Origin: Paenibacillus sp. YPG26
GTDB lineage: Bacteria > Bacillota > Bacilli > Paenibacillales > Paenibacillaceae
Direction of reading: 5' to 3'
Assembly (NCBI RefSeq): GCF_023704175.1
Contig: NZ_CP084530.1
Location: 1,820,001 to 1,884,000 of the forward strand
Length of the DNA stretch: 64,000 bases
Position numbers and translations under genes: made by a program. Below are positions 3,839-30,027 of the stretch, piece after piece. The notes under the pieces were generated by a model. That model was not told the origin of the DNA. It saw only the letters and a program-made list of their open reading frames with translations, and did no database searches. The number at the start of each line of letters is the position of its first letter. Within the stretch, counting starts at the first letter, position 1.

Positions 3839-4089
3839 GACCGTACGAGGTGGTATTGGCCTAGACCAAACTGCACTCCGAAATAAGTTGCAATAGTACA
3901 TGATGTATCATGAATCTGGTTGCGTTGGATTCTGCTCTGAGCCGAAGGGACCGAGACAGAAGGGACGAACGTATGTTACTCTTCTATGGATCTATGGACT
4001 TTTCGGACTTTTTGGTGCACAGCTGAAAGGTTCTTTTTGTTGTGTACACATACTTCTAAATTTGGGATACCCAGAGGAGATGAAGGTCC
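3839..4089 (+). promoter_or_regulatory. Long structured leader of panB, possible pan RNA motif
   Basis: No credible gene lies between birA and panB. Two hairpins sit side by side. The first, 3935-3955, has a CTC/GAG base, a short upper stem with loop GAAG and unpaired adenosines. The second, 3958-3985, pairs AGAAGGG with CTCTTCT, with an upper AAC/GTT stem. Each contains GAAGGGAC. Tandem hairpins with bulged adenosines upstream of panB are how the described pan RNA motif is characterised. I cannot confirm its consensus from memory, so this is an inference. A further perfect hairpin, CATGATGTATCATG, lies at 3899-3912. Confidence 0.4.
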
Positions 4090-4944: not shown

Positions 4945-5849
4945 TCGTTATAGATAAAGTAACAGATCTAAGGCAGTATGTGAAACAGCAGCGGCTCAGC
5001 GCCGTCAAGACAGCCGGACGAGAGCTGTCCGTAGGCTTTGTGCCTACGATGGGCTTTCTTCACGATGGTCATGCCAGCCTGCTGAAGCAGGCAAGGGAAC
5101 AGAATGACCTTGTGGTTTTGAGCATTTTTGTGAACCCCATTCAGTTCGGTCCGAATGAAGATCTGGATCGCTATCCCCGCGATGAGCAGCGGGATCTCGC
5201 TTTGGCAGCTCGGGAAGGCGTAGATGTTGTCTTTCTGCCAAGCGTGCAGGAGATGTACCCTCAGCCTACGAAGACGAAGATCGCTGTGTCCGAGCTTACT
5301 GAAGAGCTGTGCGGTGCTTCGCGTCCCGGCCATTTCGACGGGGTAACCACAGTGGTGGGTAAGCTGTTTCATATGGTCGCACCCGATACAGCATATTTCG
5401 GGCTCAAGGATGCCCAGCAGGTGGCGGTCATTCGTCAAATGGTGGATGATTTGAACTTTGATATTAAGATCGTTCCCTGCCCCATAGTCCGTGAGTCAGA
5501 TGGACTGGCGCTGAGCTCGCGGAATGTATATTTAAGCGAAGAAGAGCGGGAGCAGGCACTTATCCTGTCCAGATCTCTCCGTGAAGCAGAAGACTGGATT
5601 AAAAGCAATCCGGCAGTAACCACTGACGAAATTCGTGAAAGTCTGATTCGTAATATTAAGTCTCAGCCCTTGGCTGTCATTGATTATGTCGATATATTAG
5701 CTTTTCCGTCACTTACTCCAGTCCATACAGATGCCGCAATAAATGATCTGGATGTAGAAATCTTAATCGCCCTGGCGGTTAAATTCGGAACAACTCGCCT
5801 GATTGATAATATTCTTCTTACTACCAAAGGAGTGGCAACCCATGTATAG
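4941..5849 (+). CDS. panC: PanC, pantothenate synthetase
   Basis: Joins pantoate and beta-alanine with ATP through a pantoyl-adenylate. A nucleotidyltransferase of 302 residues. It contains [15 protein letters not shown] (HIGH-like), [16 protein letters not shown], the [14 protein letters not shown] pantoate-binding segment, YFGLKDAQQ and the KMSKS-like [10 protein letters not shown] stretch. It starts within the ATGA shared with panB, and its last 8 bases overlap panD, which indicates tight translational coupling of the three genes. Confidence 0.96.
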
Positions 5850-21677: not shown

Positions 21678-22322
21678 CTATTGACGGAGAGCTAAGCTCC
21701 GGTAAATATGCTCAAAAATAAACTCAAACGATTCCAAGTGGCGTTTGGCCTCAAACGCATTCGCTCCCCAAGCATAGATGCCATGATTGCGCAGCACGAT
21801 TCCCGGGATATCCGGATTCAGTGCAGCTGGAATCAGCTCGGCAATCCGAGGTATCTCTGCATAGTTCGGAACGACAGGAATCTCAATACGGGCATTCTCT
21901 TCCCAGATTCCCAAGCCTTTAATCAGCTCAATTCCTTGAGCAGGAATTGCTCCTTTGTCGCCATAACCTTCACTAATGATGTTGTTGTAGATGGTATGTA
22001 CGTGGAAGATCGCACCGCAACCGGTAAGGCGGTAGATCTCGGCATGGATGAGGGTCTCCGCACTAGGCTTTAAGCTGGTAGCTTCGCAGGGACGGCCTTG
22101 CTGATCCACGAACAGGAAGTCCTCGGGTGTATGGACGGATTTGTCTTTGCCGCTTGAAGTTACGGCGAAATGAAAGGTATCGGTTGAGAATTCACCTACG
22201 CGAATCGACAGATTACCGCTAGTGCCAGGGAACCAGCCGCGGGCAGCGAACTGTTCCTTCACCTTACGGAGCTCATCAAGAGCTCCAAGCTTCTCCTCGA
22301 GGGGGATATTAGTGAAACTCAT
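21678..22322 (-). CDS. mtnB: MtnB, methylthioribulose-1-phosphate dehydratase
   Basis: A 214-residue class II aldolase/fuculose-aldolase-fold protein. GWFPGTSGNLSIRV and AIFHVHTIYNN carry the zinc-binding His-x-His pair; FVDQQGRP and IVLRNHGIYAWG contribute the third His. It converts methylthioribulose-1-phosphate to 2,3-diketo-5-methylthiopentyl-1-phosphate in methionine salvage, the step before MtnW. It is the last gene of a minus-strand operon, and its start shares ATGA with the mtnX stop. No mtnD follows, unlike B. subtilis. Confidence 0.94.
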   Translation of the reverse strand: MSFTNIPLEEKLGALDELRKVKEQFAARGWFPGTSGNLSIRVGEFSTDTFHFAVTSSGKDKSVHTPEDFLFVDQQGRPCEATSLKPSAETLIHAEIYRLTGCGAIFHVHTIYNNIISEGYGDKGAIPAQGIELIKGLGIWEENARIEIPVVPNYAEIPRIAELIPAALNPDIPGIVLRNHGIYAWGANAFEAKRHLESFEFIFEHIYRSLALRQ

Positions 22323-22996
22323 CGTCTATATTCGCCTTCTCTCTTCTTGAAATCCTCAGTAATCTCTACAAATGTCTCAAAAGGGATGTGAGGTACACCG
22401 AGCTCTATACACTTCTCCGTCAGATGAGACCGGGAATAGATCCGGTCCGCCAGCTTCGCTGCTTCGAAGTCCGTTAAGCTGTCGCCGATCAGAATTCGTT
22501 CGTAGCGGTCAGCAGGGAACCTGCGCATAACCGTAGTCTTGCACATCCCGCAATCATTACTGCAATGTTCGTCACAGAGGTGCGGCCAGGTAATCTTGAT
22601 ATGGGATCCTGTGAAATCGGAACCGTTACAGTAGATATGGTCAGAAGGGATGTCAAAGGGCGCAAGAAGTGGCTGTACAAAAAAGTCAATGCCTCCGCTT
22701 GTGACATAGAAGGGGATGTCCCTGCTCCTCAGATAACCCAGGAATTCACGAAAACCTTCCCGTATACCAGCCTGGTTGAGCACGAACTCAAGAATCTCTT
22801 CACGTCTGTCAGAAGGGAGCAGCGCGAACATGGCACCGACGCCCTCATGGATCGACAGCTCTCCGGCAACCGTCCGCTCCATGATCGGTTCGTAGCCCTC
22901 AGGCTTGAAATGCTTCATAATCGCTACAATATTGTCGCTGTTCGTGATGGTTCCGTCGAAATCACAGAAGACGACGGGCTCTAAGTTAGAACTCAT
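22319..22996 (-). CDS. mtnX: MtnX, 2-hydroxy-3-keto-5-methylthiopentenyl-1-phosphate phosphatase
   Basis: 225 residues, HAD superfamily. The catalytic motif [13 protein letters not shown] lies near the N-terminus, [10 protein letters not shown] provides motif II, and [14 protein letters not shown] provides motif IV. A cysteine-rich insert ([12 protein letters not shown]) is seen in the middle. It dephosphorylates the MtnW product to the acireductone. ATG at 22996 has GGGGAGG just upstream and overlaps the mtnW stop by four bases; the frame is open further to TTG 23011. Confidence 0.92.
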
Positions 22997-24207
22997 TTCT
23001 TGCCTCCCCAAATGTTGAGAGCTCCTTGAAGCTCGGGATTGGTCGTGGCTGCCTCTTCCAGAGATATGCCCTTCAGACTAGCATCGATGGCTTGGAGGAA
23101 CGCTTGTCCGCCGGCAGCGGCGCCGCCCGGGTGACCATGGATGCCTCCACCGGCATTAACAACGACATCATTGCCGAAATCAGCAAGCAGTTGAGGTACA
23201 AGACCTGGATGAATACCCGCGGAAGGAACAGGGAAGCTGGTCTTCTGCGGTAGATCAATCCGTACAAGCTCATGGCGGATCGCCAGATTCTCTTCCCTTG
23301 GCATCACGACGGAACCATAAGGGGAAGGGAAGAGCACCAGATCCGCACCTGCCGTACGCATCAGCTTGCCAAGCAGCAGTGAAGCAGAAATCCCGTACTG
23401 GGGTGATGGATAGAGCGCTCCTGCGAGAGAAGGATGGGCAGCAATAGGAATCCGGATATCCGGGTCACCGCTCAGTTCCTGAAGAACATCCAGTCCGTAA
23501 GCAAGCGGGCTGAACAGCAGGGCAGTCGCCCCGGCGTTCATAGCTTTGAGGGCCTGGCTTCGGAGCTGCGAAGTGGGTCCGGTCAAATTCACCGCGTACA
23601 GCAGCTTCTTGCCTGTCGTCCGCTCTGCTTCTTCTGCAGCTTTCCTGCATACCTCGGCTCTTCGTTCGATCGGGGTAAGCGGGTTCTCGAACAGAATTTC
23701 ATCGTCCTTAATCAAGTCTACGCCGCCCAGCGCCTGAGCCAGGAACTGTTCCTTCAGCCCTTCAAGATCATATCCAACCACAGATTTGAAAATGCTCATC
23801 AGAAGGGGCCGTTCAGGTGCAGCAAGAAGGCTGCGAATGCCCGGAATCCCGAATTTGGGACCAGGGAAGCCTGTAAGGAAGTCATCCGAGAAGCCCAGAT
23901 CCAGAAGTTTAATCTGCCCATCCATAGAGATTTTGCCAAATGCCGTGATCAGCAAGGCTGGAAGGTCTCTGGTAAAGTTGATGTCCGGGTAAGCAATCGT
24001 CACGTCGGCATACCGTTCAGATTCTTTGGAACTTTCATGCTCCTCAATGTGAACGACATGGCCAAGGTGCTTCCGCATGCTCTCCTGCTTGAGCTGTGGA
24101 AGCTCTGTCCAGCTGCCGACTGTCATGCCTACGGCGATGGATTCTGCTTTGCGGCGGAAGTCTGCTTTGGCGTCATGAATTCTGTAAGTGGCCGTGCAAT
24201 AGCTCAT
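22993..24207 (-). CDS. mtnW: MtnW, 2,3-diketo-5-methylthiopentyl-1-phosphate enolase (RuBisCO-like)
   Basis: 404 residues, a form IV RuBisCO-like protein. The metal and carbamate site LIKDDE is present (Lys167, with Asp169 and Glu170). So are [32 protein letters not shown] and [17 protein letters not shown]. It enolises the MtnB product without carbon fixation. The order proC-mtnW-mtnX-mtnB is continuous with four-base overlaps. The ATG at 24207 overlaps the proC stop, so translation is coupled to a proline gene, which is unusual. Confidence 0.95.
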
Positions 24208-25082
24208 GATAGTGCCTCCTCTACAGCTGCACCCATCTCGCGGGAACGTTCTGCACAGCGACGTACAGCTGCTTTGACCGTCTCGGTGAAGCCGGCGCCT
24301 TCAAACACCTCAAGAGCAGCCTGAGTGGAGCCATTAGGTGAGGTGATGGCTTTGCGAAGACTGGCGGGGTCTTCACCTGTCTGTATCATCATGTTCGCAG
24401 CACCAAGAACAGTCTGCACAGTAAGCTCGCGAGCTTGCTCCGCACTTAATCCGCCTTCAATGCCTCCAGCGATCATCGCTTCCATCATGTAGTAGATGTA
24501 AGCTGGTCCGCTGCCGGATATTCCGGTTAGAATGTCCATTTGTTCTTCTGGGATTACGCTAACAAGGCCGACTGCCTTGAAGATCGAGAGGACCTGCTGG
24601 CTGTGCTCCTCAGATACCTCACTCGAGAAGGCGATGCCGGTTGCTCCAAGTCCTATGGAGCTTGAGGTGTTGGGCATGGTACGTGCAACGGGCTGTGTAC
24701 GGCCGAGCAGAGCATGAATCGTATTGATCGATAGACCTGCAATGACAGAAATGATAAGCTGGTCGTCGCGAAGGAGGGGGCCAAGCGCCTTAAGCGCTTC
24801 GCCGGCATCCTTAGGCTTCATGGCAAGCACCAGAATAGAGGCTTCCTGCAGAAGCTTCTCCTTTGTCTGGGCGTCTGAGGCAGCCCGTACCCCATAAGTA
24901 TTGTGCAGGAATTCAATCCGCTCCTGACTGCTGCGGTTGATCATGGAGATTTGGTCAGGCTTGGCGACAGCTGTATTGATAAGACCGCGGACAATTGCCT
25001 CGGCCATGGATCCCGCGCCATAGAAGCAGATGTTCAACTGATCTGTAATGGACCCGGATGACGGGTTGGATCGATCGGACAT
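24204..25082 (-). CDS. proC: ProC, pyrroline-5-carboxylate reductase
   Basis: 292 residues. The N-terminal NADPH fold has [32 protein letters not shown] and ISVIAGLSI. The C-terminal dimer domain has the signature [16 protein letters not shown] and [14 protein letters not shown]. Last step of proline synthesis. ATG 25082 ([11 protein letters not shown]) has AAAGGAGGAGA upstream; an upstream open frame inside proA is ignored. It lies 16 bases after proA and overlaps mtnW by 4 bases. Confidence 0.95.
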
Positions 25083-25098
25083 GGTAGTCTCTCCTCCT

Positions 25099-26346
25099 TT
25101 ATTGACGAATTTGGCCGCTGCCTTGAATAGTGTATTTACTCGAAGTGAGGGCTGGAAGTCCCATTGGGCCCCGTGCATGAAGCTTCTGGGTACTGATGCC
25201 GATTTCTGCTCCGAATCCGAACTCGAATCCGTCGGTGAAGCGGGTGGAGGCATTATGATAGACTGCGGCCGCATCAATCTCGTTCAAGAACCGGACCGTA
25301 TTCTCTTCATTAGCAGTGACGATACACTCAGAATGCTTGGTGCCATACTTTGAGATGTGCGCCAGAGCCTCGTCGAGGTGGGACACCACTTTGATATTGA
25401 GAATGTAATCATTATATTCAGTAGCATAATCCTGTTCAGCAGCTTCTTTGGCCCATGGTACCAGCTGAAGGGTTAACGGACATCCGCGAAGCTCTACTTT
25501 GGCTTCCTTGAAGGCTTCCGCCAGATCCATTAAATGAGCCGCCGCGAATGATTCGTGAACCAGCAAGGTCTCCATAGCGTTGCAGACAGATGGGCGCTGC
25601 ACTTTGGCATTCAGCGAGATTTCCTTGGCCATCTGCGGATCGGCTGAAGCGTCCAGATAGGTATGACAGATTCCTGCGCCAGTCTCGATTACGGGTACCG
25701 TTGCATTTTGAACTACATTCTGAATCAATGAGGCTCCTCCGCGCGGAATGACAACATCCAGAAGACCATTCAGCTTAAGCATCTCATCAACAGAAGCCCG
25801 GCTTGCATCTTCAATTAGCTGAACTGCATTAGGCGGGATTGCTGTGCCGGACAACGCGGTATGAATCAGCTCAATGATCTTGCGGTTCGAGGAGAGGGCA
25901 GCTGAGCCGCCGCGAAGCACTACGGAATTTCCAGTCTTGAGGCATAGACCCACCGCATCAACCGTAACATTAGGACGGGCCTCATAGATGATTCCAATGA
26001 CACCAAGGGGAACACGCTTCTTCACAATATGGAGACCGTTAGGGCGGTCAATCGTCTCCAGAGTCTCGCCAACCGGATCGGGGAGATGAACAATCTGCCG
26101 TAATCCCTCGGCAATACCGGAGATCCGTTCATTGTCCAGGGCGAGCCGGTCAAGCAGCGATTCAGGCGTTCCATTCTCCCGGCCTCGCTTAAGGTCCTCT
26201 TGGTTAGCTTCGATGATCTCAGATGCCCCTTTGACAAGAGCTTCCGCTACGGCAAGGAGAGCTTCGTTCTTCTGCTCTGTCGTTAATTGACTCAAGATCA
26301 AGGATCCAGAACCGGCCAGTTCTGCTTTGTTTCTCACTTCACTCAT
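25099..26346 (-). CDS. proA: ProA, glutamate-5-semialdehyde dehydrogenase (gamma-glutamyl phosphate reductase)
   Basis: 415 residues of the aldehyde dehydrogenase fold. Seen are IGIIYEARPNVTVDAVGLCLKTGN, VLRGGSAALSSNR, VIPRGGASLI, the catalytic-Cys segment KVQRPSVCNAMETLLVH and the family signature NASTRFTDGFEFGFGAEIGIST. It reduces glutamyl-5-phosphate to the semialdehyde. It lies 21 bases downstream of proB and is clearly in the same operon. Confidence 0.96.
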   Translation of the reverse strand: MSEVRNKAELAGSGSLILSQLTTEQKNEALLAVAEALVKGASEIIEANQEDLKRGRENGTPESLLDRLALDNERISGIAEGLRQIVHLPDPVGETLETIDRPNGLHIVKKRVPLGVIGIIYEARPNVTVDAVGLCLKTGNSVVLRGGSAALSSNRKIIELIHTALSGTAIPPNAVQLIEDASRASVDEMLKLNGLLDVVIPRGGASLIQNVVQNATVPVIETGAGICHTYLDASADPQMAKEISLNAKVQRPSVCNAMETLLVHESFAAAHLMDLAEAFKEAKVELRGCPLTLQLVPWAKEAAEQDYATEYNDYILNIKVVSHLDEALAHISKYGTKHSECIVTANEENTVRFLNEIDAAAVYHNASTRFTDGFEFGFGAEIGISTQKLHARGPMGLPALTSSKYTIQGSGQIRQ

Positions 26347-26367
26347 CGTAATTGCCTCCTTAAATTA

Positions 26368-27471
26368 TTATTTCAGTGAAATCCACTCATCGCGGTGAAT
26401 CACTTCCAACCTGTGGATTCCATCCATCTTCTTCATGACTTCCTGGCTCGGTAGTCCGAGCACATCAAGCAATTGGGCTTCATCATAATTCACAATCCCG
26501 CGACCAAGTATTTCCCGCTTCTCATTCATAACTTCTACGACATCACCGGTACGAAAATTCCCCTCGGCTGCACGTATACCTACAGGAAGCAGACTGCGGC
26601 CGCCATAGATTAGAGCTGTCTCCGCACCTTCATCCACAATAAGCGTGCCGAGAGGTGTTGAGAGGAAGCCCAGCCACTGCTTCTTCATGGGCAGGGAGCT
26701 TAGCCTGGTGTCGAAATAAGTTCCGCGGCCGTGTCCCTGTACAGCGCGCTGCAGTTCGCCCGGAAGACCGCCCTTGCCGATAAAGACAGGTACGCCTCCC
26801 CGTGTGGCAATCTTCGCTGCATCAATCTTCGAACGCATCCCGCCAGTTCCAACTTTGGAACCCGAGCCTCCTGCAATAGAGTAGAGTTCATCCGTGAATT
26901 CGCTCACTCTCTCAATCCGGGTAGCCGCCGGGTCGATCCGGGGATCCTTCGTATACAGTCCTTCGGTATCCGTCAGAATGATGAGGTGATCGGCCTTCAG
27001 AAGGTTAGCCACAAGTGCGGAGAGTGTGTCATTGTCCCCGAACTTCAGCTCATCGATCGAGACGGTGTCGTTCTCATTAATAATGGGCAGGACGCCCTGC
27101 TTAAGCAGTTCCTCGACAGCCATACTGGCATTGCCCATCCGCTTGCGGTTCAGGAAGTCCGTACGTGTCAGGAGTACCTGCGCAGCCGGAATTCCATGCA
27201 CCTGAAAGGCTTCACGGTACGACTGCATCAGCAAAGCTTGACCTACCGCCGCCGCGGCCTGCTTCTCATGCAGCAGCCTCGGTCTTTCGGCATAACCAAT
27301 CTCGCGAAACCCGGCCGCGACAGCCCCCGAGGTGACAAGCAGCACTTGATAACCGGCTTCCCGGAGCCCGGAGAGCTCGGCCGCGAAGAATTGCACCGCC
27401 TCCCGGTTAAGTCCGCCTTCGGGTGAGGTGAGCGAGCTGCTGCCTATTTTGACAACGACGCGTTGATGCAT
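26368..27471 (-). CDS. proB: ProB, glutamate 5-kinase with PUA domain
   Basis: 367 residues. The amino acid kinase domain (1-260) has VVKIGSSSLTSPEGGL, VTSGAVAAGFREIG, NENDTVSIDELKFGDNDTLSALVA and GTGGMRSKIDAAKIA. A C-terminal PUA domain follows (about 275-365; GTLIVDEGAETALIYGGRSLLPVGI). First step of proline synthesis. ATG at 27471 is 8 bases after AGGAG; the frame continues to GTG 27480. A T-box leader with a proline specifier lies directly upstream, so expression should rise when tRNA-Pro is uncharged. Confidence 0.96.
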   Translation of the reverse strand: MHQRVVVKIGSSSLTSPEGGLNREAVQFFAAELSGLREAGYQVLLVTSGAVAAGFREIGYAERPRLLHEKQAAAAVGQALLMQSYREAFQVHGIPAAQVLLTRTDFLNRKRMGNASMAVEELLKQGVLPIINENDTVSIDELKFGDNDTLSALVANLLKADHLIILTDTEGLYTKDPRIDPAATRIERVSEFTDELYSIAGGSGSKVGTGGMRSKIDAAKIATRGGVPVFIGKGGLPGELQRAVQGHGRGTYFDTRLSSLPMKKQWLGFLSTPLGTLIVDEGAETALIYGGRSLLPVGIRAAEGNFRTGDVVEVMNEKREILGRGIVNYDEAQLLDVLGLPSQEVMKKMDGIHRLEVIHRDEWISLK

Positions 27472-27543
27472 GACATTCACTCCTACAATAAATTAGTTCG
27501 ACTTGTGATTATAATCCTGGTCGGTCGTGTGCTCCATATAAAC

Positions 27544-27785
27544 AAAAAAACTCCCGCCTTTGCATCGCAAAGGACGAAAGTTCTGACTTCCGCGGTACCA
27601 CCTTTATTGATGAACAGGGTTCATCCAACTTACAGCCTGTTAACAGGGGCAGCTGTCCGGCTTGATTAAGCCAGCCGTTCAGGGATAGGATTCCGAAGGG
27701 CGGACGGTAAATTCTCACAGCCATTAGGAATTTACTCTCTGGAATACGCCGCGTGTCTTCGTACTGGTCCCGTCATCACGTTTCA
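27544..27785 (-). promoter_or_regulatory. T-box riboswitch, proline (CCU) specifier, upstream of proB
   Basis: On the minus strand the T-box core GGTGGTACCGCGG lies at 27602-27590. The terminator AACTTTCG(T)CCTTTGC / GCAAAGGCGGGAGTT with seven T ends at 27544. The stem I features GGGACCAGTACGAAGA (AGTA element) and GGCTGTGAGA are upstream. In the specifier region, GGAATCCTATCC places CCT (Pro) at 27689-27687 followed by the usual A. The TGGT of the antiterminator bulge would pair with the ACCA end of a tRNA with discriminator A. Uncharged tRNA-Pro should permit read-through. Confidence 0.93.
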
Positions 27786-27798
27786 TTAATATATCGAT

Positions 27799-27827
27799 AG
27801 AATAACATGGGAAAAGTGGCTTTGCAA
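27799..27827 (-). promoter_or_regulatory. Putative sigma-A promoter of the T-box/proB operon
   Basis: On the minus strand TTGCAA (27827-27822) and TATTCT (27804-27799) are separated by 17 bases, just upstream of stem I. Each hexamer matches the consensus at 4 of 6 positions. Confidence 0.45.
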
Positions 27828-27840
27828 AGGGTGAGTCTGT

Positions 27841-29031
27841 TCAGAACAGTGAGAGTCTGCCAATGCGGTGTACCGCTTCGCGCAGACGGTCCTCGCTGCT
27901 AAGCAGTCCTACCCGGACAAATCCTTCTCCGTGCTTCCCGAACCCGATCCCGGGCGCTACGGCTACTTTGGCCTGCTCAAGTATGAGCTGCGCGAAGCGG
28001 GCAGAGTCATAACCTTCCGGTACAGGAAGCCATGCGAAGAACGAGCCTCCCGGCTTGCGTGCCTTCCAGCCGATCTCATCCAGCGCACCGAACAGGGCGT
28101 TTCGTCTCGATTCATACACTGCTACAAGATCAGCGACACTCTGCTGACTGGAGGTCAGCGCCACCTGGGCTGCCTCTTGAACAGCTCCGAACAAGCTGAC
28201 ATAGATATGGTCCTGAAGCTGATTAATAAGCGAGATAATGTTCTCATTACCCACGGCAAAAGCGACACGCCAGCCTGCCATGTTGTAAGTTTTGGAGAGG
28301 GTGTAATATTCAATCCCCACTTCCTTGGCACCAGGAGCTTCCAGAAAGCTGACGGGGCGATGTCCATCAAACCCAATCGCACCATAGGCAAAGTCGCTCG
28401 CAACAACAATATTGTTCTCGGCCGCAAAGTTCACGGTATCCTCATAAAAGGACAGCGGAGCCGTTGCCGAGGTTGGATTATTAGGATAGTTCAGGAACAT
28501 CAGCTTCGCCCGTGCCTTGTCTACAGCCGATACCGCTTCGTAGTCCGGCAGGAAGTTGTTCTCCTCACGCAGGGGAAGGAAGGACATTTCGGCTCCAGCC
28601 AGTGCCACTCCAGACCAGTAATCCGGGTAACCCGGATCAGGCACCAGACACAGGTCTCCGGGGTTGAGCAGAATCTGGCTGATCTGAACGAGTCCAGTCT
28701 TGCCTCCAAAGAGAATAGCAACCTCTTTCTCAGGATCAAGGGTAACTCCGTAATCCTCAAGATAACGCTGCGCCGCAGCTTCCTTCAGGAATGAGTATCC
28801 AGTGAAGGGGGAGTACTTATGATAAAGCGGGTTCGATACCGCTTCCTTAGCTGCTTGAACTATATGTTCAGGGGTGGGCCGGTCGGGATTGCCCTGTCCC
28901 AGATTAATAACATCATGACCTGCCGAAATCTCCCGGTTCACGTTGTGCACCAGAGTGGCGAAGAACTGCTTGGGCAGACGGCCCATGACATCCGCCGCTT
29001 GTATGTTTAGGGAAGGCTTGGGTTGTTTCAT
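27841..29031 (-). CDS. mtnE: Aminotransferase class I, MtnE-like (methionine salvage)
   Basis: 396 residues, fold type I PLP enzyme. Close over its length to B. subtilis MtnE/YkrV as I recall it: LPKQFFATLVHNVNREI, HDVINLGQGNPDRPTPEHIV, ILFGGKTGLVQ, PDPGYPDYWSGV, LNYPNNPTSA, YTLSKTYNMAGWRVAFAVGN (PLP lysine) and GSFFAWLPVPEGY. It transaminates ketomethylthiobutyrate to methionine, the last salvage step. ATG 29031 has GGAG ten bases upstream. It lies directly upstream of the T-box unit and is divergent from mtnU. A more general aminotransferase role cannot be excluded. Confidence 0.85.
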   Translation of the reverse strand: MKQPKPSLNIQAADVMGRLPKQFFATLVHNVNREISAGHDVINLGQGNPDRPTPEHIVQAAKEAVSNPLYHKYSPFTGYSFLKEAAAQRYLEDYGVTLDPEKEVAILFGGKTGLVQISQILLNPGDLCLVPDPGYPDYWSGVALAGAEMSFLPLREENNFLPDYEAVSAVDKARAKLMFLNYPNNPTSATAPLSFYEDTVNFAAENNIVVASDFAYGAIGFDGHRPVSFLEAPGAKEVGIEYYTLSKTYNMAGWRVAFAVGNENIISLINQLQDHIYVSLFGAVQEAAQVALTSSQQSVADLVAVYESRRNALFGALDEIGWKARKPGGSFFAWLPVPEGYDSARFAQLILEQAKVAVAPGIGFGKHGEGFVRVGLLSSEDRLREAVHRIGRLSLF

Positions 29032-29205
29032 GTGATACACACTCCGATCAAGGTCCAGTAATGAATTTGCCTGCTTGGCTATAGTCCATCTAATTTATCA
29101 CGATTTAACCAAGCTGTATAGAATGAATTAGAGGCGGGGAGATTGCTTTTCGAGCTGCTCAAGGGATATGATTATATCTAGTTGCAAGGAAGGGAGTAGA
29201 GATTT

Positions 29206-30027
29206 ATGTCCGCAGAACAAACCCATTCTACTCAGAGTAAGTGGAATATTGCGTTGATCCAGTCCGATATTGTCCTTGGCGAACCCAAGCTGAATGCCTT
29301 TAGATTGAAGCAGCTGATGGAGCAGTCTCTCCAAGCTGAGCTCAAGCCGGATGTTATCGTTCTTCCTGAGATGTGGAACACCGGTTACGCTCTAACAGAA
29401 ATCCATGAGTTGGCTGATCTGCAGGGGCTGGAGACCAGAGCCTGGCTGTCGGATTTCGCGCGGGAGTACGGCGTTCATGTCGTCGGCGGCTCTGTCGCCC
29501 AGAAGACGGAAGGAAATGTGCGGAATACGACGTATATTTTTAACAGGCAGGGAGAACTTGCGGGTGAGTATTCCAAGATTCACTTGTTCCGGCTGATGGA
29601 GGAAGAGAAGCATTTAACAGCGGGAGACCGGAGGGTAACTTTTGAGATTGATGGAACCACCGCCGCAAGCTCGATCTGTTATGATATCCGGTTCCCCGAG
29701 CTTGCAAGGTCGCTGGCACTTAACGGAGCCAAAGCGCTCTTCGTACCGGCAGAGTGGCCGCATCCAAGAATCCATCACTGGCGTACACTGCTCACCGCAA
29801 GAGCTATAGAGAATCAAATGTTCGTCATCGCCTGCAACCGGGTCGGCGTTAGCGGGAAGGATTCCTTCTTCGGTCATTCCATGATTATTGATCCTTGGGG
29901 TGAGATTATCGCCGAGGGTGGAGAAGGGGAAGAGATTGTTACTGGACAGATCGATCTGTCTGTTGTGGATGAGGTTCGCAAGCGGATTCCTATATTTGAG
30001 GATCGCCGTCCTGAACTCTATATCTAG
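29206..30027 (+). CDS. mtnU: Carbon-nitrogen hydrolase, MtnU-like omega-amidase
   Basis: 273 residues, nitrilase superfamily, with the catalytic triad visible: Glu in VLPEMWNTGY, Lys in GEYSKIHLFRLM, Cys in SSICYDIRFPEL. B. subtilis MtnU (YkrU) sits divergently beside mtnE and is thought to hydrolyse the 2-oxoacid amide left after glutamine-dependent transamination. The same arrangement is seen here. ATG 29206 follows GAAGGGAGTAG. The 174-base divergent region to mtnE holds no recognisable SAM riboswitch. Confidence 0.85.
   Translation: MSAEQTHSTQSKWNIALIQSDIVLGEPKLNAFRLKQLMEQSLQAELKPDVIVLPEMWNTGYALTEIHELADLQGLETRAWLSDFAREYGVHVVGGSVAQKTEGNVRNTTYIFNRQGELAGEYSKIHLFRLMEEEKHLTAGDRRVTFEIDGTTAASSICYDIRFPELARSLALNGAKALFVPAEWPHPRIHHWRTLLTARAIENQMFVIACNRVGVSGKDSFFGHSMIIDPWGEIIAEGGEGEEIVTGQIDLSVVDEVRKRIPIFEDRRPELYI

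Follow-up and report, generated by a model that had tools for sequence, protein, structure and literature searches.

Why do genes for the recycling of methylthioadenosine lie behind a switch that appears to read the charging of proline tRNA? The question is raised by a locus of Paenibacillus sp. YPG26 (order Paenibacillales) within a stretch of 64,000 nucleotides, hereafter the window (contig NZ_CP084530.1, positions 1,820,001 to 1,884,000), where a T-box leader with a proline specifier precedes the proline genes proB-proA-proC and these run into the salvage genes mtnW-mtnX-mtnB. An initial annotation, made from the letters alone, had described this six-gene operon. The observation holds and was understated, and its interpretation is well supported at the level of sequence, its physiology being unproven. 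We consider it likely that a block composed of the proline T-box and proBAC took the slot of an S-box, the riboswitch for S-adenosylmethionine (SAM), moving mtnWXB from SAM to tRNA-Pro control.

The leader ahead of proB matches the T-box model RF00230 over its full length (Table 1), with CCU, a Pro codon, at the specifier columns, as the initial annotation had read it. To control this reading, we read the same model columns in ten other T-boxes of the genome, whose downstream genes we named from their sequences. The results show that 8 of the 10 codons match the downstream gene in their amino acid: CUC before LeuA- and LeuS-like genes, AUG before MetS-, the Tyr codon UAC before TyrS-, GUC before ValS-, GGC before GlyQ-, UGC before CysE- and CCC before ProS-like genes. 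The ninth reads GAC ahead of a HisS-like gene, which suits only if aspS comes after, and the tenth, before an AlaS-like gene, has CAA in the strict columns, with GCA (Ala) starting one base before them. A Pro specifier with proB, proA and proC directly downstream is the composition of a proline-specific T-box operon. Folding of the window leader alone was uninformative (z -1.46), and a tRNA-Pro pattern search of the genome gave no match, the pattern being wrong or too strict.

We then assessed how far this arrangement extends within the order. Eighty loci came from a contig scan, as the top 80 among 480 confirmed relatives, and are biased to close kin; a further 59 regions were hand-picked for genus breadth among the order genomes that carry mtnW (216 of 296), partly limited to the available positions. 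With the window this gives 140 loci from eight sampled families (f1, f2, f3, f4, f6, f7, f8 and f10), 135 of them unique by mtnW DNA, and 131 unique complete loci once four that are cut or rearranged (L034, L112, L118, L137) are left out. The six genes keep the same order and strand in 131/131 of these, across all eight families, and a gene that we call mtnE lies upstream and co-directional in every one of the 126 complete loci where it occurs. An exact match to the T-box motif stands upstream of proB in 123/131 loci. In the other eight the motif has one mismatch (L077), is decayed (L115) or is absent at up to two mismatches (L106, L120, L123, L124, L132, L135). L115, L120 and L123 retain a promoter-like site despite the lost or decayed T-box.

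The specifier is conserved with the leader. With an anchor that makes no assumption of CC, 111 of the 123 order leaders show CCN with a purine after it (68 CCU-A, 4 CCU-G, 25 CCC-G, 14 CCC-A). The remainder comprise five leaders anchored wrongly or doubtfully (L024, L091, L107, L108 and L142, the first four of which show CCU or CCC in other readings), five that are frame-ambiguous with CCN among the options (L076, L079, L092, L150, L161) and two without a usable anchor (L078, L138; CCU or CCC in another reading). An alignment of 24 leaders shows an unvarying CCUA, and 20/48 of the predicted pairs are changed on both sides. A specifier other than proline was thus sought and rejected, on the CCU of the window, the ten-T-box control and the reading across the order.

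In 16 loci a proS-like gene, 51–69% identical to the ProS of the window genome, lies between proB and proA (L073, L080, L087, L089, L090, L093-L097, L101, L119, L122, L129, L136, L139), and the operon reads T-box-proB-proS-proA-proC-mtnWXB. An embedded proS is what a tRNA-Pro-responsive operon would predict, and the switch would then also control a charging enzyme. L141 holds an insert of similar size at this position, without a proS match.

Continuity of the operon was examined at its junctions. The open reading frames of the window give spacings of +21, +16, -4, -4 and -4 from proB to mtnB, in agreement with the initial annotation, and the NCBIfam names of all six genes agree with proB-proA-proC-mtnW-mtnX-mtnB, including the salvage module in W-X-B order. 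The overlap of the proC stop with the mtnW start is an ATGA in the window, and proC ends in NTGA, as for a start-stop overlap, in 82/134 loci; 77 of the 82 carry a Shine-Dalgarno-like sequence inside proC, by a loose, uncontrolled definition. Terminator-like hairpins occur in 122/124 leaders, 2/139 proC-mtnW junctions (weak in L094, strong in L129), 0/140 mtnW-mtnX junctions and after mtnB in 101/140 loci, counts that include five duplicate loci and should be read knowing that long gene bodies give chance hits (proB, for example, 46/136). An internal terminator, of which none had been visible by eye, is rejected on the proC-mtnW count. A generic terminator scan of the window returned 13 sites (7.1 ± 3.0 expected) with stems of 5–9 pairs, the T-box terminator not being among them. 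Upstream, TG stands at the extended -10 of the best sigma-A-type site in 121/123 T-box leaders, in part by selection, as the search gave TG a bonus.

The initial annotation had named an S-box or a promoter in proC as the feature to look for; we take the S-box here and the promoter below. No S-box was found in the window at the gathering score, upstream of mtnW or mtnE included, and none turned up between 20800 and 28600 when E values as high as 5 were admitted. Two S-boxes were matched elsewhere in the genome, both more than 1 Mb from the locus, ahead of metA- and metN-like genes. Among 32 S-box loci examined in the order and the window genome, 29 lie beside metA or metN and three are unassigned; none lies beside the tested mtn genes. 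For the 24 of 40 order genomes in which the place of mtnW is known, none was near mtnW among the S-box matches listed, part of the candidates having been scored. A pattern that recalls 28/30 known S-boxes matched 2/135 loci between 400 nt before mtnE and the end of mtnB, both times inside proB. A SAM riboswitch driving mtnW is rejected, none having been found to lie before it in the window, in the stretch around the locus or in the mtnW loci of the order that were searched.

Outside the order the picture differs. From 147 matches in the other orders of the class we took 32 loci, at one or two for each family sampled: proBAC is beside mtnW in 0/32, and in 21/32 Rfam places an S-box upstream of mtnW at a distance of no more than 400 nt. 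When proA was sought in 13 such outgroup genomes, it was found in 9, and the T-box motif precedes proB in 8/10 separate outgroup proBA(C) loci, on other contigs or at least tens of kilobases from mtnW. In a tree of mtnW (32 order and 32 outgroup sequences; single gene, midpoint root, Shimodaira-Hasegawa-like support) the order is monophyletic (0.963), and its sister clade has an S-box before mtnW in 9/9 members (1.0).

The mechanism and evolutionary route that we regard as probable are as follows. Transcription would start from the conserved sigma-A promoter just past mtnE, and the nascent leader would act as a tRNA-Pro T-box, charged tRNA-Pro leading to the terminator and uncharged tRNA-Pro holding the antiterminator. 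Read-through would give a single mRNA, proB-proA-proC-mtnW-mtnX-mtnB, on which translation of mtnW, mtnX and mtnB would be initiated by overlap. MtnW, MtnX and MtnB, the lower branch of methylthioadenosine salvage, would then be kept at a basal level by leakage of the T-box and raised on proline starvation, not at low SAM. As to origin, an existing T-box-proBAC block would have been inserted on the stem lineage of the order, separating mtnE from mtnW, in the slot where relatives keep the S-box. The layout of the locus, its conservation, the lack of any S-box found there, the S-box of relatives in this slot and the position on the tree are sequence results; the transcript, its dominance and its response to proline, as well as the usefulness or otherwise of the coupling, we infer.

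Table 1 Features of the locus, in positions of the window.
Feature	Position	Strand	Evidence
proB, glutamate 5-kinase, GTG start	26368..27480	-	TIGR01027 over cut-off
proA, glutamate-5-semialdehyde dehydrogenase	25099..26346	-	TIGR00407 over cut-off
proC, pyrroline-5-carboxylate reductase	24204..25082	-	TIGR00112 over cut-off; best model ProI, below its cut-off
mtnW, diketo-methylthiopentyl-phosphate enolase	22993..24207	-	TIGR03332 over cut-off; start overlaps proC stop (ATGA)
mtnX phosphatase	22319..22996 (ATG 22996; alternative TTG 23011)	-	NF007103 over cut-off; TIGR03333 below its cut-off
mtnB, methylthioribulose-1-phosphate dehydratase	21678..22322	-	TIGR03328 over cut-off
T-box leader, T-box motif from 27602 downwards	27567..27785	-	RF00230 full model 1-219, 91.2 bits, E 1.7e-19
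Pro specifier CCU	27689-27687	-	specifier columns of the model
T-box terminator hairpin and T run	27544..27582	-	sequence; stem kept in 24 leaders
Leader promoter: TTTGCA (27828-27823), 18 nt, TATTCT (27804-27799), TG ahead of -10	27799..27828	-	best site in leader
mtnE-like aminotransferase, upstream flank, not under the T-box	27841..29040	-	NF005977 'transaminase' over cut-off
mtnU-like carbon-nitrogen hydrolase, divergent	29206..30027	+	only amidohydrolase-type models, below cut-offs

The flanking genes place the operon within a wider context. The upstream aminotransferase gene is presumed to be mtnE after B. subtilis ykrV, a name that fits its placement, as it adjoins mtnK/A, mtnU and mtnW in the outgroups; the divergent hydrolase, which we take to be mtnU-like, matches relatives' loci in position. 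The initial annotation had overlooked both genes, with which the T-box-proBAC block is located within an mtn locus. Upstream of mtnE, at about 29090-29121 on the minus strand, lies TATACA-N17-TAAATT, a loose pattern for which matches 68 of up to 125 loci; this element probably serves as the promoter of mtnE or as a site for a regulator. By mtnW, the closest named relative among the matches listed is Paenibacillus zeisoli (93%). Further regulatory elements were seen elsewhere: a pan motif (RF01749) at 3847-3963 of the window, plus strand, at 36.4 bits with a cut-off of 36.2, and, at 2016603-2017185 of the genome (L018, L008), two tandem T-box matches upstream of one gene, which presumably encodes a 2-isopropylmalate synthase.

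Several observations weigh against T-box control of salvage or against its proposed origin. The window T-box scores 1.8 bits below the RF00230 gathering score (91.2 vs 93) and is missed at the default threshold; this is not decisive, since 14 of the 21 T-box matches in the genome, including those before AlaS-, GlyQ- and ProS-like genes, are also below it. The control does not reach the whole pathway: mtnE lies upstream of the T-box, mtnK-mtnA near 2.952-2.954 Mb and mtnD at 1.935 Mb are both away from the locus, and a genome scan found no T-box or S-box match beside either. Of the proposal that methylthioadenosine recycling rises with uncharged tRNA-Pro, the putative T-box control of mtnWXB is supported by the sequence, and the extension to recycling as such was too strong. 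Within the order, the T-box motif is missing from 6/131 loci and decayed in one more with the gene order kept; five of these seven group on the mtnW tree, which gives about three losses, and in L106, L132 and L135 the mtnE and proB matches are only 12–26 nt apart, the order being kept without T-box control. Among the outgroups, an S-box is missing upstream of mtnW in 11/32 loci, and where mtnE adjoins mtnW (16 loci) the gap holds an S-box in 11 and none in 5, including a pair from family f29 that joins next to the order on the tree, with a support of only 0.464. Finally, the promoter test described below detects sigma-A-like sites only, and a weak promoter or one for another sigma factor may lie within proC.

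The T-box losses bear on a reading in which the arrangement is a frozen accident of insertion: mtnWXB would have lost their own promoter, leakage of the T-box would suffice for salvage, and the coupling would bring no regulatory benefit. The repeated loss of the T-box from an intact gene order favours it, as does the fact that the remaining pathway genes do not share this control, and we know of no established link between proline and methylthioadenosine. Retention of the arrangement over eight sampled families speaks on the other side. This reading differs from the mechanism proposed above in benefit, not in mechanism, and we judge the chances that it is correct to be evenly balanced. The opposing possibility, that the insertion alone switched half a sulfur-salvage pathway from SAM to proline tRNA charging and has persisted because a tie between salvage and proline supply is of use, for instance by connecting the methylthioadenosine load derived from polyamines to ornithine and proline metabolism, seems doubtful to us. 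Between benefit and accident we lean towards accident, and the benefit is unproven because 7/131 loci keep the gene order with the T-box gone or decayed.

A different objection is that mtnWXB have a promoter of their own, in proC or at the junction, the T-box serving the proline genes only. In its favour, the proC-mtnW gap exceeds 70 nt in 5/134 loci, L135, which has no T-box, shows a fair promoter-like site near the end of proC (score 12.2), and a score of 14 before mtnW is reached by 2% of loci, as compared with 0–3% in coding controls. At a score of at least 12, however, sites occur in the 300 nt before mtnW in 5% of 134 loci and in 1–10% of nine coding controls, that is without excess, as opposed to 76% of 131 loci in the T-box promoter zone. 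Sites of T-box-promoter strength are found before mtnW in 0/134 loci; this strict threshold is uninformative alone, being zero also in coding controls and before mtnE, and it is the softer scan that carries the argument. Synonymous conservation across proC shows no peak, and the frequent NTGA overlap also points away from a separate start. A strong internal promoter is rejected by the lack of excess over coding controls, and we consider the objection as a whole unlikely.

Least probable of all, in our judgement, is that mtnE, proBAC and mtnWXB form one operon from the mtnE promoter with the T-box as an internal attenuator, a reading favoured by the constant position of mtnE, the promoter-like element before it and the short mtnE-proB distance in three loci, but opposed by the stronger promoter-like site between mtnE and the T-box and by loci in which mtnE is kilobases off (L109) or was not found in the retrieved stretch (L066, L114, L119, L158, L159); it would change the start of the transcript and not our claim, because T-box gating of mtnWXB would be retained.

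Genomes of the order that have no mtnW were also examined. We retrieved 20 proB loci from 26 such genomes, 23 of which also lack mtnA. The proBAC genes are kept, with the T-box motif before proB in 19/20 loci and none in the retrieved stretch of L243. An mtnB-like gene stands at the end of the operon in 9/20 loci and mtnX in 1/20. These mtnB-like remnants (L227-L233, L235, L246) lie downstream of proC and are 29–68% identical, and 8 of the 9 genomes have no mtnA match; an MtnB-like enzyme left alone after a proline T-box would have no obvious substrate. In L227 a second T-box motif was seen between proB and proA (position 5170 in oriented coordinates), besides the one before proB.

Known systems resemble the locus in parts. 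A T-box with a CCU specifier heads proBA and proI in B. licheniformis (PMC3858371), where, as in the window, it precedes proBA and proline genes are controlled; the window operon differs in that proC follows proA and three salvage genes come after. In B. subtilis, ykrWXYZ (mtnWXBD) and ykrTS are among the S-box-regulated units (PMC2743287). The W-X-B order is alike, whereas in Paenibacillales no S-box was found at the locus, its slot is occupied by T-box-proBAC and mtnD is elsewhere. One study reports that B. subtilis mtnKA was not significantly induced by methionine starvation and that the riboswitch may be inactive or translational (PMC8882085), so that the S-box, too, may exert only weak control over mtn genes. 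T-box control of methionine metabolism is known from S. aureus, where initiator tRNA is sensed (PMC3771891), in contrast to the tRNA-Pro expected here. A literature search at the level of titles and abstracts, with thin coverage of subscription journals, found no account of a proline T-box in control of mtn genes and none joining T-box, proline biosynthesis and Paenibacillus; the main texts of PMC2494555, PMC8002221 and PMC6302742, searched by term, yielded no relevant passage.

Taken as we read it, the locus appears to be a clear example from nature of a pathway that changed riboswitch class through the insertion of another regulated gene block, an event that can be placed on one branch. The lineages that lack the T-box and keep the gene order offer a ready comparison. 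If read-through accounts for the main transcript, expression of methionine salvage in the order should follow proline supply, and regulon predictions carried over from Bacillus would err for these bacteria.

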